44,896 nucleotides of DNA from Acidobacteriaceae bacterium (GTDB lineage: Bacteria > Acidobacteriota > Terriglobia > Terriglobales > Acidobacteriaceae): positions 1-44,896 of the forward strand of contig PKUV01000193.1 of NCBI GenBank assembly GCA_003131315.1. The letters are read 5' to 3'. A program made the translations under genes and the position numbers. The notes below the pieces were generated by a model. That model ran no database searches, was not told where the DNA came from, and saw only the letters and a list, made by a program, of their open reading frames with translations. Below are positions 13,768 to 41,338 of the stretch, piece by piece; the first letter of the stretch is position 1, and every line of letters begins with the position of its first letter.

Positions 13768-13824
13768 CTGCCCTGGACCCAACCCTGCATTTTCTCTTGA
13801 CAGAGACAGACACCTGAAGCAGTA

Positions 13825-22789: not shown

Positions 22790-22862
22790 CGAACAGCGAA
22801 CAGCGAACGACGAACGACGAACAGCTCCCCCGAACGACTAACGACTAACGACCAACGACCCA
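22790..22862. repeat. Heptamer tandem repeat array 1
   Basis: Consecutive seven-base units such as GCGAACA, ACGAACG, ACGACTA and ACGACCA run across the 3' end of the permease gene. On the minus strand the units read GTCGTTA/GTCGTTG and supply that gene's last codons and TAG stop. Confidence 0.85.
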
Positions 22863-24316: not shown

Positions 24317-24319
24317 GAA

Positions 24320-24352
24320 ATAAGTCGTCGGTCGCTGGTCGTTAGTCGTTGG
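24320..24352. repeat. Heptamer tandem repeat array 2
   Basis: GTCGTCGGTCGCTGGTCGTT-like units on the plus strand, directly upstream of the permease start. It is in inverted orientation relative to array 3, so 24320-24533 is bounded by inverted heptamer arrays. Confidence 0.75.
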
Positions 24353-24398
24353 CGATCATCAGCATCAATTGTTTGCAAAGTGCTAACCTAAACTAAAT

Positions 24399-24443
24399 TT
24401 GTCATCCTGAGCGAAGCGAAGGACCTGCTTTTGCCAGTGCAAC
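24399..24443. repeat. Half copy of the GTCATCCTGAGCGAAGCG element
   Basis: The left arm of the inverted repeat seen at 5792 and 7528, without a matching right arm. Confidence 0.75.
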
Positions 24444-24471
24444 CACTACCGCGTGTGGCCCTGAACAACTC

Positions 24472-24533
24472 CCCGAACGACCAACGACTAACGACTAACG
24501 ACCAACGACTGCCTACCAACGACTAACGACTGC
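24472..24533. repeat. Heptamer tandem repeat array 3
   Basis: ACGACCA/ACGACTA units continue into the end of the PIG-L gene, which terminates with AGT CGT TAG taken from the repeat. Confidence 0.85.
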
Positions 24534-27312
24534 TGATCAAATTCACAAACAGCCGCACCGCCCCCGGCACGCCCACCGGCAGTTGCCGGAAGAACGCATA
24601 TCCCGTATAGATATACGTCCCCTTGCCGTAGTGCGCCACCAGCAGCCCCCCCTTCTGCTCGCTCTCTCCCGGATCATGCGATTCGAGCAGCGGTGTAAAG
24701 TTGCTGTCCCACTGCGACATGAAGTACAGCCCGCGCTCCTGCACCCATCCCTCGAAATCTTTCTGCGTAATTTCGTTCGGAGAATGAAAGATCGGGTTCG
24801 CCGGGTCGAGAATCGCAACCGGAGCCTCTTCCACCGAAACCCGTGCCCGGCTGAGCGTTGCCGGATACGGCGTGAACTTCCCCGTATTGAAATCGCCCGC
24901 CGCCGCGTTGTACTGCACCACCAGCCGTCCGCCCGCCTGCACAAAATCGAGCAGCCGCTTGTTGTTAGCGATCACATCTTTCTGCGTATCGTAAGCGCGA
25001 ATCCCCAGCACGATGGTTTGAAACCGGCTCAAATCTTCCGAACTCAGCTTCTCCGCCGGAATCAGCGTCACATCCATCCCGATCTGCTGAAGGACGGTTG
25101 GAATATCGTCCCCCGCCCCCATGACGTAGCCGACCTTCAGATCTTTCGGAACCTTCACGTCCACGATGCTGACGTGCTGCATCGCGGGTTGATAGTAATA
25201 AAACGTGCCCAGATCTTCGCGCGTGACGACCGAATAGCCCTCCTCGTAGTTCCGATGTCCGCTCTTCAGCGAGGCCCGAATTTCCTTTCGTCCCTCAGTC
25301 CGATTCCCCGGATGCACCTTGAAATCCACGCTCTGCCGCTCGCCGCGCTCATGAAACTCAAGCTCCCGTTCCGCCGGTTCCACGCGCCAGCCCTCCGGAA
25401 CCTCGACCCGCAGCGCTCCTTCATTCTTCTCCGGATCTCCCGCCCAGTGCGTTTCCTGCAGCGTCTTCGATTCCAGATTGCTCGACCCACCCACCTTCGC
25501 ACCCGATGGTGGCCCGTCCTCCATCGGCATCACCTGCTCGCCTGGATCAAGCATGACGGAAAAAGCAGGCGCCACTGCCAACGGACGCTCGGCAATCGTG
25601 CCGGACGCATCCTTATATCTCACCATGCACACTGCGGACAACACGCTCGCCCCGCCGATGTTGGCAAGTGCTTTGACCGGGGGCGGCGGGAAGGGAAGTC
25701 CTCGATACTGCGGGTCGTCAATTGCGTTGAGCGCCTCAGTTTCAGGATCGTTCCGGTGCCAGTACGGCCTCGTGGGCTGGGCTGTCGGAGGAACATAGAC
25801 CATGTATCGCGTGATGGCATCGCTTCCCTCAGTTTCTCTCGCCAGAACCCTGGAATTCCATCCCTGCGGAAGTTCCAGACTGATGCTGGACGCCCTGGTT
25901 GAGCGGTCTGCGCCAGATAGTCTGGCTGTGACTTCAAACGTCCGGCCGGGCACAGCCATGAACGCGTCCTCAGGACTTGATCCGACCGGTGCGTCGACCA
26001 CAACGTGCAGACTCACGCCCGATGCGAGTGCCCGCGCTTGCGCAATTTCACTCCCCATCCCTTGAAGCAACCGGAGCCGAAAATCCTTCTCCGCCTGTGC
26101 CGAGAGTTGGGAGCCTAGAATCTGATTGAAAACTCTGACGACCAGTCCGCTAGCCGTGGCGAGAGGAGTCTCCGCCGAAGACGGGTTTTTCTCCGCTACT
26201 GCCGTCGCCTCGTCAATTTTCGTTTTGATTTCAACCAATGCCGCTCGCAGCCAAGGCACCTTCGTCTCTTCCTCACCCAGCCGCGAAGCCAACCCCGGCA
26301 GCGTCTCATCAATCCCGTCAAAGAAATCCTGCTCGTGCCCATCCTTATCCTTCGGCGACTCCACCACGGAATCCACGAGCTTGTAATAGGTGAACCGGTC
26401 TCCCGGCTCGACCGTCCAGTTCGCCGCTCCCTGCGACTGCTGGTGCCGCAGTCCCTGCATCGCAAATTGTATGTACGATGCTCCGAGCACCGGATCAACC
26501 ACGCCCGTGTTCAGCCGCAGCGTGTAGTTGGCCGCATCGCACGTCATTGCCCCAAAGCCGCACACATTGCCGATGTACAACTTCTTCGGCTGCCAGGGCT
26601 CAAGTCCCTCTGCGATCTGCTCCGGAAACCGCTTCGCATCGCCCGCCGCGCGGAACGCCTCTTTCGTCAAGATCGCCGATGCCTGATGATGCCCATGCCC
26701 ATCGCGATCTGTCCCAGAAAACCGCGCCACCAGTACATCCGGACGAAAGGTTCGAATCACCTGCACCATATCCGCCAGCGCAATATCATGCCCTTGCCAC
26801 TTCTGAAATGTTTCTTCGGGAGTCTTCGAATATCCAAAGTCAGCCACGCGCGAAAATCGCTGCTCGACGCCGTAATAGCGATCGGAAGCCAGCAACTCCA
26901 AAGTCCGCAGCACACCCAGCACGTCGAACAGATTGCTGCCCAACTTGTTCTGCCCACCTTCGCCGCGCGTCAGCGTCATCAGCAACGTCAAGGCGCCTTT
27001 CCCGCGCGCCTCCAGCGTCAACATGCCACCGTCTTCGTCATCGGGATGCGCCGTGACCTGCATCAGCCGCGCCGTGGTGTTCAGGCGTCGCAGCATCAGC
27101 TTCAGCCCCGCCGCACCCGTTTCCTGCGGGAGCTGCTCATAGTAATGATCAGCGCTATGGTCAACGTTACGATCGCCCGCGGTCTTCTCGGCCGTCTCCG
27201 CAGCGGCGGATAGCGCGGTTGAAGCCGCCAGCAGAACCAGGAGCATCGCAGTCGCAAGCCTGTAGCGCACCAATCCAAGCCCGAACTTCTTCAGCATCGC
27301 AAACATGACCAT
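24523..27312 (-). CDS. Secreted PIG-L family deacetylase with large C-terminal region
   Basis: About 929 residues. A hydrophobic signal or anchor (residues 17-38) is followed by a PIG-L (LmbE-like) domain: MQVTAHPDDEDGGML (zinc motif AHPDDE, residues 88-93), TLTRGEGGQN and the second His motif DGHGHHQAS. PIG-L enzymes remove N-acetyl groups from sugars. The remaining 600 residues include an Ig-like middle (VPEGWRVEPAERELEF) and a C-terminal alpha/beta part (TIVLGIRAYDTQ, GGRLVVQYN, GTYIYTGYAFFRQLP) like glutamine-amidotransferase-type domains. It probably acts on an extracytoplasmic glycan. ATG 27312 is my choice; other in-frame starts nearby are possible. The last two codons come from a heptamer repeat. 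Confidence 0.82.
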   Translation of the reverse strand: MVMFAMLKKFGLGLVRYRLATAMLLVLLAASTALSAAAETAEKTAGDRNVDHSADHYYEQLPQETGAAGLKLMLRRLNTTARLMQVTAHPDDEDGGMLTLEARGKGALTLLMTLTRGEGGQNKLGSNLFDVLGVLRTLELLASDRYYGVEQRFSRVADFGYSKTPEETFQKWQGHDIALADMVQVIRTFRPDVLVARFSGTDRDGHGHHQASAILTKEAFRAAGDAKRFPEQIAEGLEPWQPKKLYIGNVCGFGAMTCDAANYTLRLNTGVVDPVLGASYIQFAMQGLRHQQSQGAANWTVEPGDRFTYYKLVDSVVESPKDKDGHEQDFFDGIDETLPGLASRLGEEETKVPWLRAALVEIKTKIDEATAVAEKNPSSAETPLATASGLVVRVFNQILGSQLSAQAEKDFRLRLLQGMGSEIAQARALASGVSLHVVVDAPVGSSPEDAFMAVPGRTFEVTARLSGADRSTRASSISLELPQGWNSRVLARETEGSDAITRYMVYVPPTAQPTRPYWHRNDPETEALNAIDDPQYRGLPFPPPPVKALANIGGASVLSAVCMVRYKDASGTIAERPLAVAPAFSVMLDPGEQVMPMEDGPPSGAKVGGSSNLESKTLQETHWAGDPEKNEGALRVEVPEGWRVEPAERELEFHERGERQSVDFKVHPGNRTEGRKEIRASLKSGHRNYEEGYSVVTREDLGTFYYYQPAMQHVSIVDVKVPKDLKVGYVMGAGDDIPTVLQQIGMDVTLIPAEKLSSEDLSRFQTIVLGIRAYDTQKDVIANNKRLLDFVQAGGRLVVQYNAAAGDFNTGKFTPYPATLSRARVSVEEAPVAILDPANPIFHSPNEITQKDFEGWVQERGLYFMSQWDSNFTPLLESHDPGESEQKGGLLVAHYGKGTYIYTGYAFFRQLPVGVPGAVRLFVNLISSR

Positions 27313-27361
27313 CTGATGGATCTTCCCCAAAGAAAGGAGCAAATATATTCCCGCCCAGCCC

Positions 27362-29779
27362 TTACCTGATCATCCCCTGCGCCGCCGTGAACTTCTGCTG
27401 GCATTCCGCCGCCGCTTGCACAATCTGCTGGAACTCCGCATCCCCGCGCACGCCTGCCAGCAGCGGGTCCGATTGCAACGCTTGGTGCGCGCAATAATTC
27501 TCGGCCACGGCCTTGCGTAGAAACGCGAATGCAATCTGTTTTTCGCCGCAAGCTGCCAGCACCGCACCCTGGTAGTACTTCAACTCCGAATCCTGCTCCG
27601 GCAATAATTCGTTTTGTGCCAGCTCCGCCAGCCGATGGACCTCCGTTGCCGGCGCCTTGTTCAGGCAAGCCTGCAAGAGTCCCCGCAGCCACATCGAATT
27701 TTCCGTCATCTGCTGCGCCGCCTGCTGGGCTTCCGTCGTCTTCCCCTCGCGCATCAGCACCGAAACTCGCACCGCGTTCGACCACTCCGAGCCCGCATCC
27801 AGGTTCAGATACTCCATCGCCCGCGCCGACTTCCCCTGCTCAAAAAAAGCAAACGAGCACGATCGCCAGTTGTAATTCCCCGAATCGATTGCCAGCGCCC
27901 GGTCGCACTCGCTCTGCGCCTCATCCAGTCGTCCGGCATAGCGCAGCACATACGCCAGCGAATAATGCGCGGTCGCATTATCCGGACGCTTCTGCACCAG
28001 TGCCCGTGCATCTTCATAAGCCTTGTCCAGGTTTCCGGCCTCGACTTCGTTTGCCGCCAGAAATCCAGCCGCACTCGCCCGTCCCGGTTCCAGCGAAAGC
28101 GCCCGCTGGTACGCCGCATTCGAGCGCTGATATCCCGCTGCCCCGCCGCCCGAATAAATCGCGTCGAAGTAATACCGCCGTCCCAGCGCTTCCCATGCCG
28201 GCGCGTAATTCGGATCAAGTCCCACCGCCCGCTCCAGCATCGCGATCGCATCCTTATTCGCTCCCCCATCGTGCGGCATCGCGACGCTGCGCAAATACGA
28301 GTCATACCCTTCGCGATTCGCCGGAGTGCTGCTGGTTTCCACCGCCCCATTCGCCACACCCAGCGCCGGCACCAGTTCCTGCCGCACTTTTTTCGCCATC
28401 TGGTTCTGCAGAGCGATCAAGTTATCCGCGGGCGAGGTCAGCGTGCCCGTCCAGATCAGCTTGTTGTCTTTCACTTCCACTGCTTCCAGCGTCACCATCA
28501 CCATCTTGTCTTGCCGCAGAAAGTGTCCGGTCACCACCGTGCCCACGCCCAACTCGCGCCCGGCTTTTGTCGGATCCGCTTCTCCGTTGCCATATTTCTG
28601 TGTCGCTGCCGATGGCCGGATTTCGAGCGAGTGTGCATACGTCAGCGCATTTGCAATCTCGTCCGCCAGCGCAAACCGCAGAAACTCGTTCTCCGCATCG
28701 TTATTAATATTCTGCAGTGGCAGCACCGCGATCGTCCGGTTACTCGCCTCCACCGTCGGCACCCGATGCTTAAGCCACCACGCCCCCACTGCCGCCAGTA
28801 CCGTGAGCAGCACCGCCGCCAGTCCAAGGCTGATCCAGTTCAGCTTCGAACTCGACTTCTGGAACTTGTGCGTCACCACGTGCAGCCCAGTCGCCTGACG
28901 AAGCCCGCTCCGCAGCTTCGGTTCCGTTCCTTGCTGCAGTCGCACCAGGTCGGCCTTCATCTCCGCCGCGTTCTGGTACCGCTGGTTGCGGTCCTTCTCC
29001 ATCGCCTTCTCGACGATCGCTTCGAGTTCCGCCGGCACCGCCGGATTGATCGACCGCAGCGATGCCGGCTTCGAATTGATCACCGCATGCAGCGCGGTCA
29101 CCACGTTCGTTCCGGTGAATGGCTTCTTACCGGTTGCCATCTCGAACAGCACCACGCCAAATGAAAATATGTCGCTCCGCACGTCCAGATCTTCCGACCG
29201 TGCCTGCTCCGGCGACATATAAACCGCCGTTCCCGGAATTACTCCCACCTGCGTCAGCGATTCCTCAAGCGACGAGTCCGTGCTCGTGCCCACACTCTGA
29301 TCCTTGGCCAGCGTCGCTAGCCCAAAGTCCAGAATCTTCACCTGTCCATTCGGAGTCAGAAAAATGTTTGCCGGCTTGATGTCGCGATGCACAATCCCCT
29401 TGGCATGCGATGCCGCCAGCGCGTCCGCCACCTGCACCGCAATTTCCAGCAGGTCTTCAAGGTCGATCGCGTTGCCATGGATCCGCTGCTTCAGGCTCTC
29501 GCCTTCCAGTTTCTCCATGACGATGAACGGCTGCCCGCCGTTGTCCTCAATGTCGTGAATCGTGCAGATGTTTGGGTGGTTGAGCTGCGATGCGGCGCGC
29601 GCCTCCCGCGTAAACCGGTCGAGCGAGCGTTGATCCTTCGCCAGGTGTTTGGGAATGAATTTCAGAGCGACATGCCGCCCCAGGCGGACGTCCTCCGCTT
29701 CGTAAACAACTCCCATTCCGCCGCCGCCCAGCTTCGACAGCACGCGGTAATGGGACACCGTTTGCCCAACGATATCCAT
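27362..29779 (-). CDS. PknB-type Ser/Thr protein kinase with TM segment and TPR region
   Basis: An 805-residue membrane kinase. The kinase domain (11-280) is intact: GGGGMG P-loop, Lys 40 in ALKFI, HRDIKPAN (131-138) with catalytic Asp, DFG (151-153) and the SPEQAR motif. A transmembrane helix (about 316-338) follows. The outer part has a FlgO/TolB-N-like domain (TIAVLPLQNINNDAENEFLRFALADEIANAL) and TPRs (DPNYAPAWEALGRRYYF, NATAHYSLAYVLRYAGRLDE). This kinase-TM-sensor-TPR design is common in Acidobacteriota. Signals and substrates are unknown. The PIG-L gene begins about 50 bases after its stop, so the two are probably co-transcribed. Confidence 0.93.
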   Translation of the reverse strand: MDIVGQTVSHYRVLSKLGGGGMGVVYEAEDVRLGRHVALKFIPKHLAKDQRSLDRFTREARAASQLNHPNICTIHDIEDNGGQPFIVMEKLEGESLKQRIHGNAIDLEDLLEIAVQVADALAASHAKGIVHRDIKPANIFLTPNGQVKILDFGLATLAKDQSVGTSTDSSLEESLTQVGVIPGTAVYMSPEQARSEDLDVRSDIFSFGVVLFEMATGKKPFTGTNVVTALHAVINSKPASLRSINPAVPAELEAIVEKAMEKDRNQRYQNAAEMKADLVRLQQGTEPKLRSGLRQATGLHVVTHKFQKSSSKLNWISLGLAAVLLTVLAAVGAWWLKHRVPTVEASNRTIAVLPLQNINNDAENEFLRFALADEIANALTYAHSLEIRPSAATQKYGNGEADPTKAGRELGVGTVVTGHFLRQDKMVMVTLEAVEVKDNKLIWTGTLTSPADNLIALQNQMAKKVRQELVPALGVANGAVETSSTPANREGYDSYLRSVAMPHDGGANKDAIAMLERAVGLDPNYAPAWEALGRRYYFDAIYSGGGAAGYQRSNAAYQRALSLEPGRASAAGFLAANEVEAGNLDKAYEDARALVQKRPDNATAHYSLAYVLRYAGRLDEAQSECDRALAIDSGNYNWRSCSFAFFEQGKSARAMEYLNLDAGSEWSNAVRVSVLMREGKTTEAQQAAQQMTENSMWLRGLLQACLNKAPATEVHRLAELAQNELLPEQDSELKYYQGAVLAACGEKQIAFAFLRKAVAENYCAHQALQSDPLLAGVRGDAEFQQIVQAAAECQQKFTAAQGMIR

Positions 29780-29811
29780 AGAAGTTGTGCCCGGGCACCC
29801 TTGCAGAAGTG

Positions 29812-29838
29812 TGGCGCGGGCGCCCTCGCCCGCGAAGG
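29812..29838. repeat. GCGCGGGCG/CGCCCGCG palindrome
   Basis: A variant of the GCGCGGACA hairpins, with a compensated stem, upstream of the kinase gene. Confidence 0.6.
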
Positions 29839-29915
29839 CGTAATGTTAGGCTGTCATCGCGGTCGGGTCAACCGAGTTTGGGGATAGCTATGCAAGCGGT
29901 AAAATTGTCGGGTGC

Positions 29916-29948
29916 CCCACTCATTCGCGCTCTTTGCGAATGAGTGGG
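29916..29948. repeat. GTGCCCCAC hairpin with variable stem, copy 1
   Basis: CCCACTCATTCGC / GCGAATGAGTGGG around a GCTCTTT-like loop, downstream of the divergent ATP-grasp gene end. Copies with different but fully paired stems are at 40136, 41395 and 41519. Confidence 0.75.
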
Positions 29949-29967
29949 AGCGGGGAATCATGACCAA

Positions 29968-31155
29968 CTAACTACCAACCAGCGCCGCCGACGATCCAAC
30001 CCAATCCATATTCTTGTTCTGATCCACGCCCATCATCAGCCCACGTCCCATGCGCACGATCGTCAGCACCGGAACCAATTCGTCGAGCCACACATACATG
30101 ATCCGCAGTTCGACTTTGGTTGCGCCGTGCGGTGTCTCCACCACCGGCGTGAAATTCAATCGCTCCTGCAGAATGTATTCGCTGCGTTTCGCCGCAGGAA
30201 TCGCCTCAATTTCTCTCCGCGAAGGCGCAATCACCACGCCCAATCCGGCAAACGAATACAGCGGCTTGAGCACAAAATTCTCCAGATCCGCCGGCACTTC
30301 CGTCAGTTGATCCAGAAACCACGTGCGCGGCACCGACGGATGCTTCAAATAAGGGATCGAATACTTGCTCATCCGGAAATACCAGTTCGGATGCCCCGCC
30401 CACTCCACATCCAGCTCATCGCGAAAATCAAACGGCAACGTGATGCCCTTGCGTTCCAGTTCATCCACGATGGTGCGGTTATAAATCCGCTCAATCGGAA
30501 TCCGCTTGCCGCCCTGCTCATAAAACAGCCGCCGCCCGTCTTTATGAATCTTGGTGATGCACACCGTTCGAATCCCAAGCATCTTTTCCGTCAGCAGAAA
30601 ATCCGGACGCGTCTTCTGCTCCTCCGGATGCACCTCCATCAACACTACATTCGCCGGATCGTGCCCCGCGACAATCGCGTCCTGCAAAAGCCGCTGGTAG
30701 GAAGCCGAGTCCAGCCCACTCAAAAAGTAGCGAAGCTTCCGATCGAGTCCGAACACATCGATGTAAGCCTGCGCCAAAACCGGCTGGTACGCGTAAAGGG
30801 AAGGGAATGCCTGCAACTCGACCAGTTTCGGCTGTAACTCGCCCGCCGAATCCCGCACCAGTCCGAAGTCCACCTGGATAAACATCGGATGCGGCGATTC
30901 ATTCGGCACCCGAAACTGCGCCGAAATCGAAGCCTCCGAGCGCGCCCGGTACTCCGGATTCTCCACCAACTGCCGGATCAGCGCTTTCCCATCCTCCCCC
31001 ATGCGCTCGACCAGCGCATTCGGAAAGAAGCAAGGCGTCTCGCAAAGCGCGAATGGAACTTCCATCCCGCACCGCGAAGTCATCTCGCGCCGCAACCGCT
31101 CGTATTTGTCAGAAGTGAAGCTCGAGTTGAAGCTTTGCCGATAAGAGGGAATCAT
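29968..31155 (-). CDS. Divergent ATP-grasp enzyme (glutathionylspermidine-synthase-like layout)
   Basis: A 395-residue soluble protein without a well-known name. FVLKPLYSFAGLGVVIAPSR (near 295-315) has the ATP-binding Lys and glycine-rich loop of an ATP-grasp fold. ILQERL fits the hinge, and TKVELRIMYVWLDELVPVL the C-terminal lobe. The N-terminal half has LVELQAFPSLYAYQPVLAQAY, comparable in place to the substrate-proximal acidic segment of glutathionylspermidine-synthase-type ligases. It probably joins a carboxylate to an amine with ATP. It is the last of five same-strand genes with a second ATP-grasp and a GCS2 ligase. The fold is likely; the subfamily is tentative. Confidence 0.6.
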   Translation of the reverse strand: MIPSYRQSFNSSFTSDKYERLRREMTSRCGMEVPFALCETPCFFPNALVERMGEDGKALIRQLVENPEYRARSEASISAQFRVPNESPHPMFIQVDFGLVRDSAGELQPKLVELQAFPSLYAYQPVLAQAYIDVFGLDRKLRYFLSGLDSASYQRLLQDAIVAGHDPANVVLMEVHPEEQKTRPDFLLTEKMLGIRTVCITKIHKDGRRLFYEQGGKRIPIERIYNRTIVDELERKGITLPFDFRDELDVEWAGHPNWYFRMSKYSIPYLKHPSVPRTWFLDQLTEVPADLENFVLKPLYSFAGLGVVIAPSRREIEAIPAAKRSEYILQERLNFTPVVETPHGATKVELRIMYVWLDELVPVLTIVRMGRGLMMGVDQNKNMDWVGSSAALVGS

Positions 31156-31209
31156 GGAGTGCGTGTGGGGCCGGGTCTTCGACCCGGCCCGTCGAAGCTC
31201 GACGGCCTA

Positions 31210-31327
31210 ATAGCCTGCTGAAAAGTCGAAATCGCAACGGCAGCCCCTAAAGGGGCGGTTACCACTGAACCACTACGGCATCGCTGAAGCGATGCCCTGA
31301 TACGAAGCGCGAATTGTTCCGCAGCCA
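31210..31327. repeat. Dispersed 125-bp structured repeat, copy B
   Basis: Shares the body of copy A (CCCCTAAAGGGG hairpin; GGCATCGCTGAAGCGATGCC at 31277-31296; CTGATACGAA). Its outer stem is degenerate. It sits between two genes of the ligase cluster. Confidence 0.8.
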
Positions 31328-31337
31328 CCAATGCCAA

Positions 31338-31387
31338 GAGCTAACAGCCAAGAGCTAACAGCCAAGAGCTAACAGCCAACAGCCAGC
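31338..31387. repeat. Heptamer tandem repeat array 4
   Basis: GCTAACA/GCCAAGA units in a 14-base period, starting right after the stop codon of the M29 peptidase gene. Same seven-base logic as the ACGACTA arrays. Confidence 0.85.
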
Positions 31388-31388
31388 T

Positions 31389-32432
31389 CTAAGCCTCAAT
31401 CAAAAACTGCCCGCTCCGCATGATCTGCTCGCCGTCCACCCAGATATCGAATTTCCGTCCCACCACATCAATGTGCGTCGACGAATACCACTCCGCTCCA
31501 GTGTGCGCCCCATACGGATTCCCAAACGCAATGTGCACGCCCGGGTATTTCTCATCCTGCAATATCTGCCCAATCACATCTTTCAGTTCGATGTTCGTCC
31601 CAATCGCAAATTCGCCTACCCGATTGCTGTTCTCATCCGTATGCGTGTAAGCCCAGAAATCGTCTTTCAATTCTTTGTTCGCCGAGTGCGCCTCGATCAA
31701 CCGATTCCCCTTGACCTGGATGGTCAGCGGATTCGCCTTCAGATCGCCAAACTTCGCGCACAAATAGTCGCCGACCACGCCATCAATCACGAAGGTTCCG
31801 TTCACCTCGCCCGGCGTAGTGAACACTTCACCGCCCGGCAGGTTCCCCCACTTTTCCGTACTGATAATCCCGCTCGTCTTCACCCACCGGTAATTCGGAT
31901 TCAAATCCGCTACCAGGTCCGTCCCCGCGGACGTCTTCGCCCGGATTTGTTTCGCCTGGCGCACCGTCTCCAGTACTTTCACGCTCAGCCGGTCCACCTT
32001 CTGGAAGTCCGCGCGCATGCCTTCCAGCATGATCCGCTTGTTGATGTTGACCATGTGCGCGTGCCGGATCTTTCGCCGATTCACGATATCCGTCATCTGC
32101 ATCCGCGACTTCAGTTCGTTGGTCTGCGCCTGCACCGCAAAAATGCTGACCTGGCTGGTCTCCAGATCCTCCATGATCGCCAGCGGCAAATCCGTCAGCG
32201 GACGAGTCGCCACATCCTCCAGCACCCATGTCTGGTACCGGCAGCCCACCTCTTCCAGTTCGCGCACCAGCGCCGCGGCAATCTCCAGACTCACTTCATC
32301 GGCGATGACGGCGACTTTTTCCGAAGCCAGCACGCGCAGGCACACGCGCACCGCATTTCGCGCCCCCGGCGTCAGTTGCGGATCAAAAGCCATCTGATTC
32401 AGTTGTCGGTTGGATGGTTCCGCAGTATTCAT
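31389..32432 (-). CDS. M29-family metallo-aminopeptidase (AmpS/PepS type)
   Basis: A 347-residue cytoplasmic peptidase that removes N-terminal residues with a two-metal centre. The expected ligands are present in order: Glu in LPGGEVFTTP, Glu in NRVGEFAIGTN, His in GVHIAFGNPYGAHTGAE, and His and Asp in STHIDVV near the C-terminus. Length is slightly shorter than the usual 360-410. It follows the GCS2 ligase by 34 bases and is likely translated from the same message. In this setting it may trim or recycle the product of the amide ligases. Its stop codon is directly followed by a heptamer repeat array. Confidence 0.85.
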   Translation of the reverse strand: MNTAEPSNRQLNQMAFDPQLTPGARNAVRVCLRVLASEKVAVIADEVSLEIAAALVRELEEVGCRYQTWVLEDVATRPLTDLPLAIMEDLETSQVSIFAVQAQTNELKSRMQMTDIVNRRKIRHAHMVNINKRIMLEGMRADFQKVDRLSVKVLETVRQAKQIRAKTSAGTDLVADLNPNYRWVKTSGIISTEKWGNLPGGEVFTTPGEVNGTFVIDGVVGDYLCAKFGDLKANPLTIQVKGNRLIEAHSANKELKDDFWAYTHTDENSNRVGEFAIGTNIELKDVIGQILQDEKYPGVHIAFGNPYGAHTGAEWYSSTHIDVVGRKFDIWVDGEQIMRSGQFLIEA

Positions 32433-32466
32433 CCGCAGTATCCATCAAAAGTCTTCATCAAACTCA

Positions 32467-33606
32467 TCAGACGGCCCGGGCGGTGGGCAAACTATCCACC
32501 TCGTCCACGCCCACCTCAGTCTCCTCTATGATGTAGTCCACCACGGATTTCATGTCGCCGGTTTCGCGGTACACCCGCAACTGCCGGTCCGCGCCCGTGC
32601 CCATCGTCATAATCTCGCGGATGTACTCCACTTCTTTCCGGCAATCAAGTTCGTCCAGCACGTCATCGACGAATTCCAGGTACTCTTCGATCAACTCGCG
32701 CTCCGGAACCTCCATCGACTTGCCGAAGTCGATCAGTTTTCCGTTGATCCCATAGCGTGCCGCCCGCCACTTGTTTTCCATCAGCAGCGACTTCCGGTAC
32801 AGCCGGAATCCCTGGTTCTGCGAGTACAGCTTATAGAGCTTTGCCACCGTCGCCTGGATCAGCGCCGCCAGCGCAATCGTCTCGTCCACCCGCATCGGAA
32901 GATCGCACACCCGGAACTCCAGCGTGTCGAAGAATGGATGCGGCCGGATGTCCCACCAGATTTTCTTCGCATTATCGATCGAGTTCGTCTTTACCAGCAG
33001 CTTGATGTAATTCTCGTACTCGCCCCAGCTCGGAAAATAATCTGGCAGGTTCGTCCGCGGAAACTTGTCGAACACCTTGCAGCGGTACGATTTCAGCCCC
33101 GTATCCATCCCCAGCCAGAAAGGTGAGTTCGACGACAGCGCCAGCAGATGCGGCACAAAATACCGCGCATGATTCATCAGGTGGATCAGTGTCTCGCGAT
33201 CCTCGATGCCCACATGTACGTGCAGCCCGAAAATCAGGTTGGCCCGGGCCACCAGTTGCATATCCTCCACAATGTTTTTGTAGCGCTCGCCCGGCGTAAG
33301 TTCCTGCATGCGCCAGTCCGCAAACGGATGCGTTGCCGCCGAAGCCAGCCGCAGCCCATTCTCCCGCGACAGCCGGATCATGTGCCTCCGCAGCTTCTTC
33401 AGTTCTTCCCGGGCTTCCTTAATATTGGCGCAAACCGAAGTTCCAACTTCCACCACCGATTGGTGCATCTCCGTCTTGACCCGTTCCTGCAGGATCAATT
33501 TGCCCTTCTCGACGATCTCGGCGTGAATGTGCGACCGAAGATCCCGAGTCTCAGGATCGACGGTCTGATACTCCTCTTCGATTCCAAGCGTGAATGTAGG
33601 CTTCAT
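32467..33606 (-). CDS. GCS2-type carboxylate-amine ligase (YbdK-like)
   Basis: A 379-residue member of the glutamate-cysteine-ligase-like GCS2 family, close to the usual YbdK length. Residues 6-13 (TLGIEEEY) carry the metal-binding glutamates; GLHVHVGIED (128-136) and FFDTLEFRVCDLPM (near 222-235) complete the signature of the glutamine-synthetase-like fold. Such enzymes form an amide bond between a carboxylate and an amine with ATP, and several have weak gamma-glutamylcysteine ligase activity. ATG 33606 is the sensible start, because homology begins at MKPTFTLGIE; an extension to 33639 is possible. It lies between an ATP-grasp gene and a peptidase gene. Confidence 0.92.
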   Translation of the reverse strand: MKPTFTLGIEEEYQTVDPETRDLRSHIHAEIVEKGKLILQERVKTEMHQSVVEVGTSVCANIKEAREELKKLRRHMIRLSRENGLRLASAATHPFADWRMQELTPGERYKNIVEDMQLVARANLIFGLHVHVGIEDRETLIHLMNHARYFVPHLLALSSNSPFWLGMDTGLKSYRCKVFDKFPRTNLPDYFPSWGEYENYIKLLVKTNSIDNAKKIWWDIRPHPFFDTLEFRVCDLPMRVDETIALAALIQATVAKLYKLYSQNQGFRLYRKSLLMENKWRAARYGINGKLIDFGKSMEVPERELIEEYLEFVDDVLDELDCRKEVEYIREIMTMGTGADRQLRVYRETGDMKSVVDYIIEETEVGVDEVDSLPTARAV

Positions 33607-33676
33607 CGCGGCACCCCAAGCTGCCAGGTGGGAGGGCACTCTGGCAGAAGTTGCACAAGTATACCAATGAGCAGGT

Positions 33677-33760
33677 GTGGCGCGGACACTCCTGTCCGCG
33701 AGCTGTCGGTGTCAGCAAGAATTGTCAATGGAGACAGGGATATCCCTGTCCGATCCCCGT
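33677..33760. repeat. Two short palindromes between ligase genes
   Basis: GCGCGGACACTCCTGTCCGC at about 33679-33700 and ACAGGGATATCCCTGT at about 33733-33750 fill the 156-base gap between the ATP-grasp and GCS2 genes. Confidence 0.65.
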
Positions 33761-33762
33761 CC

Positions 33763-34752
33763 CTACGCCTGCCCCTTCTTCCGCACCTTCGGCGCCCGGA
33801 TCTCCACCCACTTCGGCGCATTCAGAAACGCCGCCCAGCGCAATTCCTCCACCGGATTCTTCCCGCTCAGCGCTTTCTTCACTGCCATCTCCGCCACCGC
33901 GTCCACCACCCACTCAAAATTCTGCTGCCCCACCGACGTTACCTCCGCATCCGGAGCCGGATTCATGAAGTCAATTGCATAGGGGATGCCACCCTCCACC
34001 GCAAACTCCACTGTGTTCAGGTCGTAGCCCAGCGCGCGGCACAACGCCAGCGCATCTTTTTCGATACGCTCCTTTAACGGCGCCCCCGGCTGCGGGTTCC
34101 CCTTTACATAGCGCTCATGGTGCGGAGCCTTCGGATCGTACTTCATGATGTGCACTTTCTCCTGCCCCACCACGTAACAGCGGTAATAATCCTCAAACTC
34201 CACGCCATGCTGCAGCGTCATGCAAAGGTCGCCCGTCTGGTTGTAGTTGTGGAAGAACTCCTCCGGAGAATGCGCCTTATACACATGCTTCCATCCGCCG
34301 CCCGAGTAAGGCTTCAAGAATGCCGGAAACCCAACATAGGCAAACACCTCTTCCCAATTCAGCGGGTACATCAAATTCCGCATGGATTTGTCGGTTGTAT
34401 CCGGCGGATGCTCGTGATGCGGCAAAATCACCGTAGGCGGAATCGCCACGCCCATCTTGTGCGCCAGCGCATAATTAAAAAACTTGTCGTCCGCTGTCCA
34501 CCAGAACGGATTGTTAATCACGATCGTCCCCTGCAGCATCGCGTTCTTCAAATAGGCCCGGTAGAAAGGAATGTCTTGCGAAATCCGGTCAATGATTACG
34601 TCGTACTTCTTCGGCTCATCCATACGGATGCCGCCGATCTTCACAAATTCGGCCGTAACGTCCTCGGCCTTCATGGAGTTAATCTTCTCGACCAACGCCG
34701 GCGGAAACGTATTCTCCATCCCAAAAAGAATTCCGATTGTCTTGTTAGTCAT
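33763..34752 (-). CDS. ATP-grasp amide ligase (RimK-like)
   Basis: A 329-residue protein with a clear ATP-grasp core. FPAFLKPYSGGGWKHVYKAH supplies the nucleotide-binding Lys and flexible glycine loop. VHIMKYDPKAPHHERYV is the next strand pair, and VEFAVEGGIPYAIDFMNPAPD is the metal-binding Glu/Asp/Asn motif near the C-terminus. The N-terminal pre-ATP-grasp domain starts TIGILFGMENTFPPALVEKIN. It should activate a carboxylate as acyl-phosphate and couple it to an amine. Donor and acceptor are unknown. The upstream gene is an esterase and the downstream gene a GCS2 ligase, an arrangement that suggests one pathway. Confidence 0.85.
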   Translation of the reverse strand: MTNKTIGILFGMENTFPPALVEKINSMKAEDVTAEFVKIGGIRMDEPKKYDVIIDRISQDIPFYRAYLKNAMLQGTIVINNPFWWTADDKFFNYALAHKMGVAIPPTVILPHHEHPPDTTDKSMRNLMYPLNWEEVFAYVGFPAFLKPYSGGGWKHVYKAHSPEEFFHNYNQTGDLCMTLQHGVEFEDYYRCYVVGQEKVHIMKYDPKAPHHERYVKGNPQPGAPLKERIEKDALALCRALGYDLNTVEFAVEGGIPYAIDFMNPAPDAEVTSVGQQNFEWVVDAVAEMAVKKALSGKNPVEELRWAAFLNAPKWVEIRAPKVRKKGQA

Positions 34753-34792
34753 AACTTAGATCCTCTTCAGCCTATGATCTCATCTTTCCGCC

Positions 34793-34827
34793 AACGACTA
34801 ACGACCAGCGACCAACAACTAACGCCT
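34793..34827. repeat. Heptamer tandem repeat array 5
   Basis: ACGACTA/ACGACCA/GCGACCA units start at the stop codon of the esterase gene and end before the ATP-grasp start. Confidence 0.75.
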
Positions 34828-35536
34828 AAAAATACTTTCCCGCCATCCGCTGCCACAGCGGCCAATCATGCTTGCTGTTATCTCCGTAGATATCCAGCCA
34901 ATGCGGAATCCCCTTGCCTTCGAGAATCCCCGCCATCTTCACGTTCGCGTCCAGACACATATCCCAGTCCGACGTTCCCAGCACAATCTTCATCTGCCGG
35001 CACCGGCTCAGGAACCACTCATCGCCCATGTTCGGCAAGTAGTCCGGAGGGTTATTGAAATAGCAGTTGTCGTCGTAGTAGCCGTCGAGGAAGCTCTTGA
35101 TGTCGAACGATGCGCTCATGGTCACGCAAGACGAAACCACATCCGGATGCCGCATGGAAAAATTCAGCGCGTGATAGCCGCCAAAACTGCATCCCGTCAC
35201 CACCATCTGCGGAGCCCAGTTCTTCCACTTCAAATACGGCAGGAACTCGTTGATCACGTAGCGCTCGTATTGCACATGCCGCCAGATCCGCGCTCCCGGA
35301 TGCACGCCTTTGTTGTACCAGCTCTCGCCGTCGACGCCGTCCATGCAGAACACCTGGATCGCGCCCGCTTCCAGTTTCCCGCCCAGCGCACGGATCATCC
35401 CCGCATCTTCATACTCAAAAAAACGTCCCATGGATGTCGGAAAAACGATGACCGGTTGCCCGGCGTGCCCGAACACCAGCGACTCCATGTCGCGCCCTAA
35501 TTCGTGGCTATATTGTTTGTTATATTCGCGGTTCAT
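34826..35536 (-). CDS. Alpha/beta-hydrolase, esterase D-like (COG4947-type)
   Basis: A 236-residue cytoplasmic hydrolase. The nucleophile Ser is in VVTGCSFGGYHALN; GTSDWDMCLD and DNSKHDWPLWQ give the likely Asp and His of the triad. The starting segment (ESLVFGHAGQPVIVFPTSMG) and the VHPGARIWRHVQYERYV region are typical of the small putative-esterase group next to S-formylglutathione hydrolase. It is the first gene of the five-gene ligase cluster and could release or transfer an acyl group from the ligase product. Downstream spacing is 73 bases. No clear ribosome-binding site is seen before ATG 35536. Confidence 0.82.
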   Translation of the reverse strand: MNREYNKQYSHELGRDMESLVFGHAGQPVIVFPTSMGRFFEYEDAGMIRALGGKLEAGAIQVFCMDGVDGESWYNKGVHPGARIWRHVQYERYVINEFLPYLKWKNWAPQMVVTGCSFGGYHALNFSMRHPDVVSSCVTMSASFDIKSFLDGYYDDNCYFNNPPDYLPNMGDEWFLSRCRQMKIVLGTSDWDMCLDANVKMAGILEGKGIPHWLDIYGDNSKHDWPLWQRMAGKYF

Positions 35537-35613
35537 GTGCGCGAGGATTGTAACCGAACTGCCTGACCTTCGGCATCTGGCCCAGGCGGCGTTCGGTACG
35601 TCCTAAATTCATC

Positions 35614-35814
35614 AACCACAAAGGACACGAAGTCACACGAAGGTGTGAACCCTTAAGAGCCCGTGGTGAAACTCCAGTTTCCGGCCTCAGGGCCTGAAGG
35701 CGCTCTCATAACGCAGCGCTTACGGCATGCCTGAAGGCATGCCCTGATACGAACCATACTTGCACCACGGGCTGATAAGGCTTTCCTTCGTGCTCCTTCG
35801 TGTCCTTTGTGGTT
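35614..35814. repeat. ACCACAAAGG inverted repeat interrupted by copy C
   Basis: Arms 35614-35642 and 35784-35814 match the element at 700-779, but here they are separated by about 140 bases. That spacer is copy C of the dispersed structured repeat. The 317-base gap 35537-35853 holds these repeats and no gene. Confidence 0.85.
35651..35780. repeat. Dispersed structured repeat, copy C
   Basis: Outer stem CCTTAAGAGCCCGTGGTG / CACCACGGGCTGATAAGG and inner perfect hairpin GGCATGCCTGAAGGCATGCC (35724-35743), followed by CTGATACGAA. The inner stem differs from copies A and B by paired changes. Confidence 0.85.
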
Positions 35815-35830
35815 AAAGCTCTTCCGCCGG

Positions 35831-35858
35831 TAGAGACGGGGCTTGCCCCGTCTCTACT
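35831..35858. repeat. GTAGAGACGGGG palindrome
   Basis: GTAGAGACGGGGC / GCCCCGTCTCTAC hairpin. Read on the minus strand it contains the TAG stop of the sigma-54 activator gene. Confidence 0.8.
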
Positions 35859-38800
35859 GCCCCGGCGATCCTGACCGCGGATTGATTCCAAAATACTTCA
35901 GCTTCGATTGCAGCGTTGTCCGCTTCAATCCCAACCGCATGGCTGCTCCTCTCAGCCCGCCAATCTGCCCGTGGCTCTCCCGCAAAGCCCGCAGAATGTG
36001 CTCGCGTTCCGTCGCCTCCAGAGTTTCATCCGCGCTTTTCTCCTCCGTGCTAATCGGCTTCAGTTCGCTTAACGGCGACACCAGCACCGAACCTTGCGTC
36101 AGAATCACGGACCGCTCGATAAAATTCTCCAACTCCCGCACATTCCCCGGCCACTCCCACCCCATCAGTGTATCCATGGTTCTCTTTGGAATGCTCGTGA
36201 TCGACTTATTCATCCTCCGGGCGCACTTCTGCACAAAATGTTCCACCAGCAACCGGATGTCTTCCCGCCGTTCCCGTAAGGGTGGCACGCGGATCGGAAA
36301 CACGTTCAGCCGGTAATACAGATCGCTCCGAAACCCCTTCTGTCGCACGAGCTCAGCCAAATCGCGGTTCGTCGCCGCAATCAAACGAAAGTCCACCTTC
36401 AACGTATGCGTTCCGCCCAGCCGTTCGAACTCCTGATCCTGTAAAACCCGCAGCAGCTTCGGCTGCAACGCCAGCGAAATATCGCCAATCTCGTCCAGAA
36501 ACAGCGTGCCCTTGTCCGCCAGTTCGAGTCGTCCAATTTTCTTGCTCACCGCTCCAGTGAACGCGCCCTTCTCATTACCGAATAACTCGCTTTCCAGCAG
36601 CCCCGACGGAATCGCCGCGCAATTCATTTTGATGAAACTATTGTTGACGCGCAGGCTCAACCGGTGGATCGCCCGCGCTACCAGTTCCTTTCCGGTTCCC
36701 GTTTCGCCCAGCAGCAGCACGGTGGCATCGCTGGCCGCCACTTTCCCCACGTACTCCATGACCTCTTGCAAGGCCTTGCTGTGCCCGATGATTTCCCCGA
36801 ACCCCAGTTCCGTATCGATTTCCTGCTCGAGATAAAGCTTTTCTTCCGTAAGCTTTTTCTTGGCTTCGCGTAACGCTTCGGTTGCCACCCGGAGCTCGGT
36901 GACATCCGTGCTGGCGCCGGTGAGTCCAATCACCGCGCCCGCCGAGTCCAAAACCGGCTCGATCGTCGTATCGAGGTAGTGCTTCCTGCCGCCGTAGGTG
37001 ACCTGTATTTCATCACGTACTCCCACCCCGGTTTCCAGCACCCGCCGCCGGACTTCCGCGGTGCGCGCAGCCTCCTCCGCGTCGAAGATCTCGCCCGCCG
37101 TCTTTCCCAGCAGTTCGCTCGGCGGCCGAGAAAGATGCGAATTGTAGATCCAGGTGTGGCGCAAATCCCGGTCCAAGTTGAACACCGCAATCGGAGAATT
37201 CTTCAGCGCCACGCGGAACCGTTCCTCGCTTTGCCGCAAGGCCTCTTCGGTCCGCTTGCGCTCGATCTCCGCTGCCGTTCGCGCCGAGAACAGTTGCAGA
37301 ATCGTTTCGACAAATTTTGCATTCGCCAGCGGTCGAGTGTAGGCCGCCACCATGATGCCAATGGCCCGCCCTTGCGAATTGCGCAAAGGCGTCCCGACAT
37401 ATCCCTCCACCTTCATCTGCTTGAGCAAAACGTCTTTCGGGAACATCTCCGCCACACCGGAAACATAAGTGCAGGCGCCTTGCTCTATGACTCCTTCGCA
37501 CGGAGTATGCGCGAGATCGTAAGTGAAGTTGTCCGCGATCGCACCCTGACTGCAGACACCAATCGTTCTTACCTTGTCTTCTTCGCCTTCGATGAGTTCT
37601 CCAATAATCGTATAGTCGGCTTCCAGACACTTGGCAAGCTGCAAGGCCATCGAGGTAAAAAAGTTCTCGCTGCTGTCGGCTCGCACCTCTTGCACCAGGG
37701 TGGCGATCGCCGCCGCCTCCCGCTTGCGCTCGGTGATGTCCATGTTCACTCCGACAACTCGCAAGGACCCTGTGGCCGCATCCTCCATTACCAACCCTCG
37801 CCCGCGTATCCACCGCATCACGCCGTCCGGCCGAATCAAGCGGAACTCCGATTCGCTCTCTTCGCGGCTCTGCACCAACTGCGCAAACTCCTCTTTGACC
37901 CTTGCCCGGTCTTTGGGATGCACCAGTTCCCAACAAAAGAAGGTGGCAAAATTCTCCGCGAAGCCGCTGGGGATCCCCCAGATTTCGGCGAATTCGGCCG
38001 TCCACGTTCCCCGTCCGCTCTCCAGTTCTACCTCAAACGCTCCGATCTTTCCGATCTGGAGCGCCAGTTGTTGCCTCCGCTCACTCTCCCGCAGCGCCTC
38101 CTCCGCCTGCCTCTGTTCGGTGATGTCCTCCACCAGAGCCATGTCCCATCGGCACGTCTCTACGTCACCCCACATCGGCACCACCAGAATCCTCACCCAG
38201 CGCACCGATCCATCCGGGCGGACATACCTTTTTTTCAGCTCGTAATTTGCCAGCTTTTCCTCGGACAGTCGGTGCAGGTACTCATTGCTGCGCTCAATAT
38301 CGTCGGGGTGGGTAACGCTTGCCACGTCGCTCCGCAGCAGTTCTTCTTCCCCGCGCCCGGTGATTTCGCAGAACTTCGGATTGGCTTGCAGGAATCGCCC
38401 GTCCCTTGATTCCACCAGCGCAATGCCAACCGGAGACCGCTCGTACACCGCCCGGAATCGCACTTCACTTTCCCGCAACGCCTTCTCCGCCTGTTTCAGC
38501 TCGGTCACGTCGACCGACGCCCCCACTGCTCCCCGCGCCTTGCCTTCCTCATCCAGCAGCGGAACCATATTCACCAATGTTTCCAGCTCGGTGCCATCCT
38601 CAAATACGATCGTCAGCGCCCGCCCATACACCGGCTTCCCCGTGGCCGCCGCTTGCTGCATCGGCAGCAAATCCACCGGAAGCTCCACCCCGTCTTCCAT
38701 CAGCCGGAACGTGGGTCGCTCCTCGAGCGCTGCGCTCTTCGAAATGTTCTTGCCCGCGGGCACACGCATCTGTTCGTATGCCGCCCGGTTGCCGGTAATC

Positions 38801-39777
38801 CGCCGGCACTCGGCGTCATGCGCGATACAAACCGCTACCGGTACCGCCTCCAGCACCGTCTCCAGTTCCTTCGCTCGTGCCCGCTCCCGCGCTTCACTCT
38901 CCCGTAACGCCTCCTCCGCCCGCTTCCGCTCCGTGATGTCGCGCGACACGGACACGTCATACTCGCGGTCCAGTCGCACCCGGTGCGCATTCACTTCCAC
39001 CGGAAACGTCGTTCCATCTTTCCGCCGGTGCGTTCTCTCAAAGATTGCGAATCCCGACTCCCGCAACTGCTGCTGCACCCGCGCCCGCGAACTTTCGTCG
39101 ATGTCCGGGTCGATGTCAAAAACCGTCATCGACAAAAGCTCTTCCCGGCTGTACCCAAGCTCAACCCACGCCCTCTCATTCATATCGAGAAAACGCAGGG
39201 TCTCCGGATCGGTGACCTGAATGGCATCGTTCGAATGGTCCAGCAGGGTCCGGAACAGCGCCGCCTCGTGGAGTATCTGCTCCCGCTCGTGCGCAGTCTT
39301 CAGCAGCTCTTCGTTGCTCGCGCGCAGCGCCTTCTCCGCCCGCACCCGTTCCGTGACGTCGTGCGCGATCCCCCACACAATCGACGACTCCACTCCTTCG
39401 GTTCGCAGCGTGTTGTGACACTCCCAGATCCGCTGCTCTCCCGATCGCGTCATTACCGCCAAAAGGCCGTGAAACACGCCTGTGCGCTCGATCCCGCGCA
39501 GATAGACATCAAACTCAGCGCGGAATTGCGGGTCAATAAAATCCCGCATCGGCATCTGCAGCATTTCTTCTACGCTGTAACCCAGCAGACGCGCTGCAAT
39601 GGAATTGACCGACAGGAATCGGCCTTCAAGGTCGTGGACGCACAGCAGGTCTTGGCTGTGCTCAACCAGATCGCGATACCAGTCTTCGTTTTCTTCCAGG
39701 TCCCGCCGGATCGGGTCCCACGCGACTAGCGCTTCTTCCGGGAAATGGCGCTTCCGTTCCGCAGAGTGCAATGCCAT
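35854..39777 (-). CDS. Multi-PAS/GAF sigma-54-dependent transcriptional activator
   Basis: A 1307-residue regulator without membrane segments. At least five PAS/PAC units are visible (about 30-150, 170-285, 300-430, 435-555, 565-690), then a GAF domain (about 700-845) and one more PAS (about 850-975). The AAA+ domain starts near 991: Walker A GETGTGKE (1024-1031), the sigma-54 contact loop GAFTGA (1071-1076), Walker [10 protein letters not shown], and WPGNVREL. A Fis-type HTH closes the protein (about 1266-1298, [18 protein letters not shown]). It would activate an RpoN-dependent promoter in response to cytoplasmic signals. The final codons run into a palindrome. Targets are unknown; the ligase cluster downstream on the same strand is a candidate. 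Confidence 0.93.
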
Positions 39778-40328: not shown

Positions 40329-40573
40329 TTGGGGCGCCCTCGTCTTGGTTGGTGCCGCATTCCAGCAATCTGGGCCGAGCGAAGCTCGGCCGGGCAGCGA
40401 CGAGGTAACTGCATTGGAAGAAGTGGTGGTGACGCTTTTAGCCGATTGCACGTGAACTCCGCGCGGCACACGCGTAGGGACAAAGTGTGCGAAATTGCAC
40501 AGACATAGAACACTGCACCGTATTAAATTCTATGACGGCCGAAGAAAGGGATTCGCGTAATACGGAGAATATT

Positions 40574-41338
40574 ATGAAATTGTTCACTTTGTTCTTGCTC
40601 GTTCTATCGTCGTTGCAAGTTGGCGCTTTTGCCCAAACTGTTATCAATCTTGGAACAGCTGATAACTTTGCCTTGCTGGGCGCCGCCGGCATCACCAATG
40701 TTAGTGCACACACCTACATAATTGGCGATGTAGGCAGTTTTCCGACACCCAGTATAACCGGCCTCACGCAATCCCAAGTGAATGGTCTCCTGTACCTCGA
40801 GGCGAGCCCCGCGACGGCCCAGGCGCAGACGGATCTGACTGGGGCATACACTCAAGCGTTTAACGCGCCGTGTGCCAACGACCTTACCGGCAAGGATCTG
40901 GGCGGATTGACACTCGGACCTGGAGTCTATTGCTTTTCGTCCTCAGCCGGATTGACTGGCACTCTGACGCTGGACGCTCACGGGAATACCCATGCGCAGT
41001 GGATTTTCCAGATTGGCAGTACTCTGACGACTGCCAGCAATTCCACAGTGGCCATAGTCCTAGGGCACAAGCCAGGGCCGCTCTGGAGCACAGGTGTCCT
41101 AGGGCACAGGCAAGGGCCGCAGCCGCTCTGGAGCCGAGGTTTGAGAGGGTGCAATGTGTACTGGCAGGTCGGTTCCTCAGCTACTATTGGGCACGGTACC
41201 ATTTTCCGCGGAGTGATCCTGGCGCTTACTAGCATCACGCTAGACGGCGGGACCCTTCACGGTAAGTCTCTAGCCAGTAATGGTGCGGTCACGATGTCTG
41301 CCCGGGAGACGGTTAACGGTCCGCCATGTGGTAACTAA
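40574..41338 (+). CDS. Secreted DUF3494 ice-binding-like protein with internal insertion
   Basis: A 254-residue secreted protein. A signal peptide (cleavage near GAFAQ) precedes the DUF3494/ice-binding beta-solenoid: LGTADNFALLGAAGITNV, YIIGDVGSFP, DLGGLTLGPGVYCFSSSA, ANWIFQIGST-like AQWIFQIGSTLTTASNST, then CNVYWQVGSSATIG and GVILALTSITLDGG. Known members bind ice or act as adhesins. About 30 residues (163-192, LGHKPGPLW... to ...LWSRGLRG) interrupt the usual direct run from the STV strand to CNV(Y/F)WQVGSSA. They are encoded by two tandem copies of a 40-base repeat. ATG 40574 has GGAG at good distance; earlier in-frame starts lack it. Confidence 0.88.
   Translation: MKLFTLFLLVLSSLQVGAFAQTVINLGTADNFALLGAAGITNVSAHTYIIGDVGSFPTPSITGLTQSQVNGLLYLEASPATAQAQTDLTGAYTQAFNAPCANDLTGKDLGGLTLGPGVYCFSSSAGLTGTLTLDAHGNTHAQWIFQIGSTLTTASNSTVAIVLGHKPGPLWSTGVLGHRQGPQPLWSRGLRGCNVYWQVGSSATIGHGTIFRGVILALTSITLDGGTLHGKSLASNGAVTMSARETVNGPPCGN
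41058..41141. repeat. Tandem 40-base repeat inside the DUF3494 gene
   Basis: Unit 1 (41058-41096) and unit 2 (41097-41141) both begin TCCTAGGGCACA and contain GGGCCG and CTCTGGAGC; unit 2 has six extra bases. The reading frame is kept. Confidence 0.85.

Follow-up and report, generated by a model that had tools for sequence, protein, structure and literature searches.

Five genes on one strand of an acidobacterial contig

The DNA analyzed here, referred to as the window, is a stretch of 44,896 nucleotides from an Acidobacteriaceae bacterium (contig PKUV01000193.1, designated G000:C128, within a genome of 6.0 Mb). It carries five genes, named E, R, G, M, and D in their order along the minus strand, which we find to form a conserved module. 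Their products are predicted to be an esterase (E), an M29-like metalloenzyme (M), and three amide ligases (R, G, and D; Table 1). The original prediction, made from the sequence alone, had claimed five same-strand genes at positions 29968–35536, and all five open reading frames (ORFs) were indeed found there, on the minus strand. Because each is conserved in many other genomes, at about 39–95% identity, E, R, G, M, and D are genuine genes and not chance ORFs. The ORF tool places the start of G at a GTG (33639); the ATG given in Table 1 was used here. Among the matches listed, the named loci nearest by R belong to metagenome-assembled genomes of Acidobacteriaceae and Candidatus Sulfotelmatobacter.

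Table 1. Genes of the cluster and its flanks in the window, with predicted products
Feature	Predicted product	Length (aa)	Position	Strand	Remarks
E	alpha/beta-hydrolase esterase	236	34826..35536	minus	triad S117/D192/H223
R	RimK-like ATP-grasp ligase	329	33763..34752	minus	core gene of the module
G	YbdK/GCS2 carboxylate-amine (gamma-glutamyl-type) ligase	379	32467..33606	minus	ATG at 33606
M	M29/NicX-superfamily metalloenzyme	347	31389..32432	minus	M29 two-metal ligand residues
D	circularly permuted ATP-grasp	395	29968..31155	minus	glutathione synthetase/glutathionylspermidine synthetase/YgiC fold
Upstream flank	multi-PAS sigma-54 activator	1307	35854-39777	minus	directly upstream of E; adjoins E in part of the genus
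Downstream flank	amino-acid permease, PIG-L deacetylase with NPCBM-associated domain, Ser/Thr kinase with TPRs		22838-29779		downstream of D

Gene order and co-occurrence

A first search with R covered 61 genomes and returned a match in 27 of them, that of the window included; the match was shortened in G030 and weak in G040. Among the 25 stretches compared, the arrangement E-R-G-M-D recurs within the genus of the window and in other genera of its family, and the outer flanks vary. The exceptions are three stretches of the genus that hold E-R only, and L024, in which E is inverted. A scan of named genomes with the R alignment confirmed at least 592 places, of which the best 80, a choice that favors close relatives and partly overlaps the 25 stretches, were kept. 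At an E-value of 1e-10 or lower, R was found in all 80 of these best loci, G in 59, M in 52, E in 50, and D in 39, many of the loci being cut by contig ends. All five genes lie on one strand in 27 of the 80, and in every one of these 27 the order is E-R-G-M-D, with median gaps along that order of 67.5, 145, 44.5, and 38 bp. The genus of the window has two longer gaps, of 156 bp for R-G and 233 bp for M-D. Loci of Ignavibacteria type (L122 and L125) have E-R-G-D without M. That the five genes should co-occur and keep their order if they belong together therefore holds across genera and families: instead of being scattered, the homologs share a neighborhood common to many relatives. Terminator-like sites number four in positions 29700–36000, against 5.4 expected, and give no sign of internal terminators.

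The panel used for co-occurrence consisted of 149 genomes of the phylum, each at least 90% complete. It contains R in 48 genomes, E in 46, G in 46 (33 at an E-value of 1e-144 or lower, called close orthologs below), D in 19, and M in 14 (at 1e-40 or lower). E and R are found together in 45 genomes, E alone in one, R alone in three, and neither in 100. All 33 genomes with a close G ortholog also have R, and 32 of them (the exception is G186) have either D or its replacement D2, another circularly permuted ATP-grasp. R accompanies D in 18 of 19 genomes and M in 12 of 14, and 11 of the 14 genomes with M have D. D or D2 is present in 38 of the 48 R genomes, both together only in G065 and G124, and the combination of R, G, and D or D2 is complete in 32 of the 149. 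At high score, D2 was found in 22 genomes, all with R. This last count leaves out six genomes with weaker matches (E-values of about 1e-60 to 1e-68), none of which has R. Likewise, the M count leaves out 11 genomes with weak matches (28–32% identity, 1e-20 to 1e-28), among which G114 has R, and the close-G count leaves out 13 genomes with matches between 1e-60 and 1e-144, of which G089 and G117 have R. Kept in spite of their weakness were the R of five genomes (G067, G073, G089, G111, and G189), the partial M of G176, and the partial match in G108 to the GATase-like gene described below.

Partners on different contigs, or separated by more than 20 kb, were counted as unlinked. This applies to E-R in 22 of 45 genomes, to R-G in 12 of 34, and to M-D in 5 of 11. 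Because the E-R and M-D pairs persist together in genomes where they are unlinked, the parts co-occur beyond mere linkage. Of the nine genomes of genus g31, four have the complete trio G, M, and D, and five have no member of it, even though D is unlinked in this genus, at a distance of about 0.9 Mb or on a separate contig; E and R occur in seven of the nine. The genus of the window (13 genomes, including all seven without a match to R) has both M and D in eight genomes and neither in five, and these five also lack R; in G001, G002, and G010, M-D is on a different contig from E-R. These distributions bear on the possibility that the five genes serve separate housekeeping functions and are adjacent by chance or through selfish clustering. 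Their dispersal in many genomes is what such a view would predict, but co-occurrence persists despite the dispersal, and G, M, and D are gained or lost together in a genus in which D is unlinked, so that we regard separate functions as very improbable.

The set is modular, being made up of E-R, of G with D or D2, and of M or a GATase-like gene, and is not an indivisible five-gene unit. A modular REPLACEMENTS is seen in other lineages in the R-D2-G form. The GATase-like gene was named by eye from a Cys-His-Ser-Phe-Gly stretch, and its copy in L024 matches no Pfam family. Its place is the G-D interval in L024, L138, and G097; in L133, it follows D2. Ten of the 149 panel genomes have it, and every one of these has R and none has M. 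Among the 19 genomes with D, 11 have M, seven have the GATase-like gene, one (G124) has neither, and none has both. Such alternation suggests a single slot occupied by either M or the GATase-like gene; we retain this idea for the phylum alone, where lineage may account for the pattern. A distant relative (L025, positions 9097–14594) shows G-R-D2-M followed by a convergent pair of TldE/TldD-type metalloproteases.

Predicted products of the five genes

From its scores, all above the family cut-offs, G is clearly a YbdK-type carboxylate-amine ligase, with its activity predicted. It reaches 227 bits to Pfam GCS2 (cut-off 21), 561 bits to the NCBIfam carboxylate-amine ligase model PRK13515 (cut-off 371), and 311 to TIGR02050 (cut-off 176), and YbdK (1r8g) was found in the PDB search at 9e-52. 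R appears to be a RimK-like ATP-grasp, its similarity to RimK being weak: it scores 28.5 bits to NCBIfam rimK_fam (TIGR00768), under the cut-off of 143.4, no Pfam family was matched, and a PDB sequence search gave weak matches to D-Ala-D-Ala ligase and carboxylase, at E-values of 0.009 and worse. E matches Pfam Esterase at 31 bits (cut-off 22), and each residue of its triad (Table 1) is found in 48 of 49 aligned sequences.

In the five genomes named above as having a weak R, this protein is 29–32% identical to that of the window, and all five also have a divergent E (29–34%), located in G067 about 300 bp from R. These genomes suggest an old E-R pair; a limit on this reading is that E copies of 33–34% identity also occur in G065, G097, and G118.

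By sequence, D gave only a sub-threshold match to ATPgrasp_ST (18 bits against 31), with no Pfam family over cut-off and no PDB match for either D or its profile. Its predicted model, with a predicted local distance difference test (pLDDT) of 92.5 and a predicted template modeling score (pTM) of 0.92, returned 18 Foldseek matches at 0.001 or lower, all of them to glutathione synthetases and relatives. These include glutathione synthetase (6e-15), the putative glutathionylspermidine synthase 3n6x (9e-14), YgiC (5.5e-13), GspS (8e-11), Cp1B (9cjn, 1e-10), and YjfC, and identity to the solved fold relatives is 11–17%. Judged by the fold of this model, D is predicted to be an ATP-grasp of the glutathione synthetase/glutathionylspermidine synthetase/YgiC type. 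Pederick and colleagues are said to have identified YgiC and YjfC in 2023 as peptide-spermidine ligases. A relationship of D to RimK was rejected, as LysX and RimK appear only at Foldseek ranks 19–20, with E-values of 0.08–0.15. Hence, the original description of D as a divergent ATP-grasp stands as to ATP-grasp, and the structure match corrects its kind to the glutathione-synthetase/glutathionylspermidine-synthetase type. D2 matches Pfam CP_ATPgrasp_2 at 2.6e-12 in the one member tested and also matches 3n6x; the profiles of D and D2 are homologous and collinear (hhalign E-value 4.5e-6, probability 86.5).

M matches Pfam Peptidase_M29 at 57 bits (cut-off 27) over profile positions 202–353 of 406, and no NCBIfam model was matched. 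Its predicted model (pLDDT 84.7) shares the M29/NicX fold. The first Foldseek match is the 2,5-dihydroxypyridine dioxygenase NicX (1.2e-19), ahead of PepS (2.2e-17) and AmpS (1.8e-15), and in the single-sequence PDB search only the dioxygenase stood above noise (0.00022). Together with a NicX-like length of 347 aa, these matches would fit M being a NicX-like oxygenase, in which case the module would make or break an oxidized ring instead of trimming a peptide; such a role is compatible with the ligase part of the pathway proposed below. The conserved residues argue otherwise. E202, E274, H300, and Y307 of M align with E256, E322, H351, and Y358 of AmpS (chain numbering), which we take to be metal and catalytic residues, and none of the four varies among the 50 sequences. 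Equally invariant are H320 and D322, which lie outside the AmpS-aligned stretch, were assigned from a THxD motif, and are common with NicX. In NicX, the iron ligands are presumably H265, H318, and D320, and at the position of M aligned to H265, 47 of the 50 sequences have Arg and three have Leu. With a Pfam score placing it in family M29, M thus appears to keep the M29 two-metal ligand set and the catalytic Tyr, and peptidase activity is predicted. Judged by its ligand residues, M is less likely to be a plain NicX dioxygenase, and a ring-modifying module is improbable in our estimation. Beside AmpS, AmpT, PepS, and NicX, M shares the fold and keeps the M29 ligand residues, but is shorter than the solved chains (347 against 397–413 aa), and its nearest solved fold is that of NicX.

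Structure prediction, proposed at the outset as a check, thus placed D with the glutathione synthetase group and M in the M29/NicX fold. Catalytic residues had also been said to be visible in all five proteins. This held for E and M, in which they were mapped and are conserved; R, G, and D were examined for conservation only.

Neighboring genes and other features of the window

Neighborhoods were surveyed at 82 loci by clustering ORFs of 90 aa or more. After the five genes, the most frequent neighbors are a second esterase family, recognized by Pfam (19 loci), an aldo-keto-reductase-like family named by eye (12), and the PIG-L family of the window (12). The remaining families occur in nine or fewer loci, among them an MFS-like transporter, also named by eye (six). 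The survey bears on whether the module could serve salvage or degradation of amides or peptides, the ligases merely activating substrates, as in the use of gamma-glutamylated amines. The hydrolases E and M and the GATase-like gene of some relatives would suit such a role, and gamma-glutamylation before oxidation is known for putrescine. However, no oxidase or transporter is prominent among the frequent neighbors, the aldo-keto-reductase-like and MFS-like families being found as often as stated above, and salvage seems to us hardly likely.

A different function would be protein or peptide tagging: a protein target or a small protein would receive amino acids through the action of R and of G or D, and M and E would take off or edit this tag. 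In 2009, Iyer, Abhiman, Burroughs, and Aravind reportedly predicted that ATP-grasp and other amide ligases make peptide metabolites or tags together with peptidases, and the module resembles the neighborhoods reported there in its combination of ATP-grasp, other amide ligases, and a peptidase. M29 enzymes act on peptide N-termini, which would suit removal of a tag. RimK, for its part, modifies a ribosomal protein, according to PMC10092738. Against tagging, no other small-protein family occurs in more than nine of the 82 loci (ORFs below 90 aa lie outside the survey), the intergenic gaps are short (medians 38–145 bp), and the fold of D is that of small-molecule ligases such as glutathione synthetase, YgiC, and Cp1B. 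We consider tagging unlikely. The same gaps leave, in most loci, little room between the genes for the precursor of a graspetide, a ribosomally synthesized and post-translationally modified peptide, with the same limit on ORF length.

No PADLOC family matched any of the five proteins at an E-value of 0.001 or lower, and a known anti-phage defense system was rejected on this ground. No Rfam family reached its gathering score within the window. The PAS/sigma-54 activator encoded upstream of E is a possible regulator of the gene set; matches to a sigma-54 promoter, sought as its partner, number 44 in the whole window against 51.9 expected, which is not above chance. On the other side, some members of the genus and some genera of the family keep the permease, PIG-L, and kinase genes downstream of D. 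The original prediction that no transporter is present is therefore roughly right, not strictly so, as the amino-acid permease lies at 22838–24316, downstream of the cluster, with a linkage confined to some members of the genus and family.

Three near-identical palindromic repeats of 31 bases (CGTATCAGGGCAT..ATGCCGTA) are found on the minus strand at 21658–21688, 31274–31304, and 35721–35751, one of them in the M-D gap and one upstream of E. Their mean number in 100 shuffles was 0.00, though the pattern was drawn from two of the copies. By sequence they look like interspersed hairpins of the REP type. An ice-binding-like protein is encoded at 40487–41338 (Pfam Ice_binding, 155 bits).

A proposed pathway to a gamma-glutamyl peptide or peptide-amine

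We think it probable that the five genes encode the acidobacterial version of a conserved pathway that, independently of the ribosome, builds a small gamma-glutamyl-type peptide or peptide-amine conjugate. A single pathway to a short peptide or conjugate had been proposed from the sequence; co-occurrence and conserved order support the single pathway, and the type of product is simply one that would fit three ligase folds and the hydrolases. In the pathway, G would activate a carboxylate for joining to an amine; the likeliest candidate is the gamma-carboxyl group of either glutamate or a glutamyl compound. D or D2 would extend the product of G at a free carboxyl with an amino acid or a polyamine, and R, which with E is the most widespread part of the module, would form a further amide bond. 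Maturation or turnover may involve M, by removal of an aminoacyl or glutamyl group from the N-terminus, and E may hydrolyze an ester of the precursor or product. Gene content and order, co-occurrence, folds, and the conserved catalytic residues of M and E were observed directly; from these we infer a common pathway of the genes, its substrates and sequence of reactions, and what M and E do in it, trimming and recycling included. D or D2 is placed after G because the close G orthologs depend on D or D2, in the manner of a gamma-glutamyl ligase followed by a ligase of glutathione-synthetase fold. The pathway would most likely be soluble.

Several observations weigh against this proposal. The 27 ordered loci include mutual close relatives, and the Fisher values (2.5e-33 for E-R, 1.3e-24 for G with D or D2) are descriptive only, as they ignore phylogeny. 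In nine of the 149 genomes, E-R is kept although a close G, M, D, and D2 are all missing (13 genomes have E-R but no close G, D, or M, and four of these have D2; G089, one of the nine, has a G match at 1.5e-135), so that E-R must function without the rest. Conversely, G192 has M and D without R, G176 a partial M without R, and two genomes of the window's own genus, G021 and G023 (72% and 76% complete), M and D with no match to R. In G186, D and D2 are both missing, though E, R, G, and M are present. Outside the phylum, the alternation of M with the GATase-like gene failed to appear: none of the 13 genomes searched, of which three have D, yielded the GATase-like gene, in a search that had no positive control and genomes whose completeness is not given. 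Finally, the nearest solved fold of M is a dioxygenase.

The proposed pathway resembles the biosynthesis of glutathione and glutathionylspermidine in that G belongs to the GCS2 superfamily, D would have the fold of eukaryotic glutathione synthetase, GspS, and YgiC, and close G orthologs occur almost only with D or D2. It differs in that G is of YbdK type, D is far removed in sequence from the solved enzymes, as noted above, and the module adds the ATP-grasp R, the M29-like M, and the esterase E. Another comparison is offered by Cp1B, the ATP-grasp of the fungal E-64 pathway, which has the same fold as that predicted for D. According to PMC12568646, Cp1B joins a dicarboxylic acid and an amino acid to a pseudodipeptide and works with an Fe(II)/alpha-ketoglutarate oxygenase and an ANL-family amide synthetase. 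These partner enzymes are not among the annotated neighbors of the module, for which no dedicated search was made.

BshC, of bacillithiol synthesis, was found in 102 of the 149 genomes, that of the window included, and bacillithiol is predicted for Acidobacteria in PMC6282198. On these two grounds, the product is unlikely to serve as the main thiol of the cell, and the distribution of BshC led us to reject the module as a replacement for a missing thiol pathway. A more specific version, in which G, D or D2, and R would make a new gamma-glutamyl peptide-amine like glutathionylspermidine or trypanothione in users of bacillithiol, with M and the GATase-like gene as interchangeable removers of a glutamyl protecting group, is speculative and rather unlikely as a whole.

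The enzyme families concerned are already known, and the five-gene set itself is probably undescribed in the literature searched: no description of E-R-G-M-D was found in titles and the beginnings of abstracts, Iyer et al. 2009 not having been checked for the set. Acidobacteriota are abundant in soil and chemically poorly understood. A set of three ligases points to an undescribed metabolite in these bacteria, and as a conserved, defined, and directly testable module, it provides a defined gene set for reconstitution. If its product is a peptide-amine conjugate, the module would add a glutathione-independent branch to the chemistry of such conjugates.

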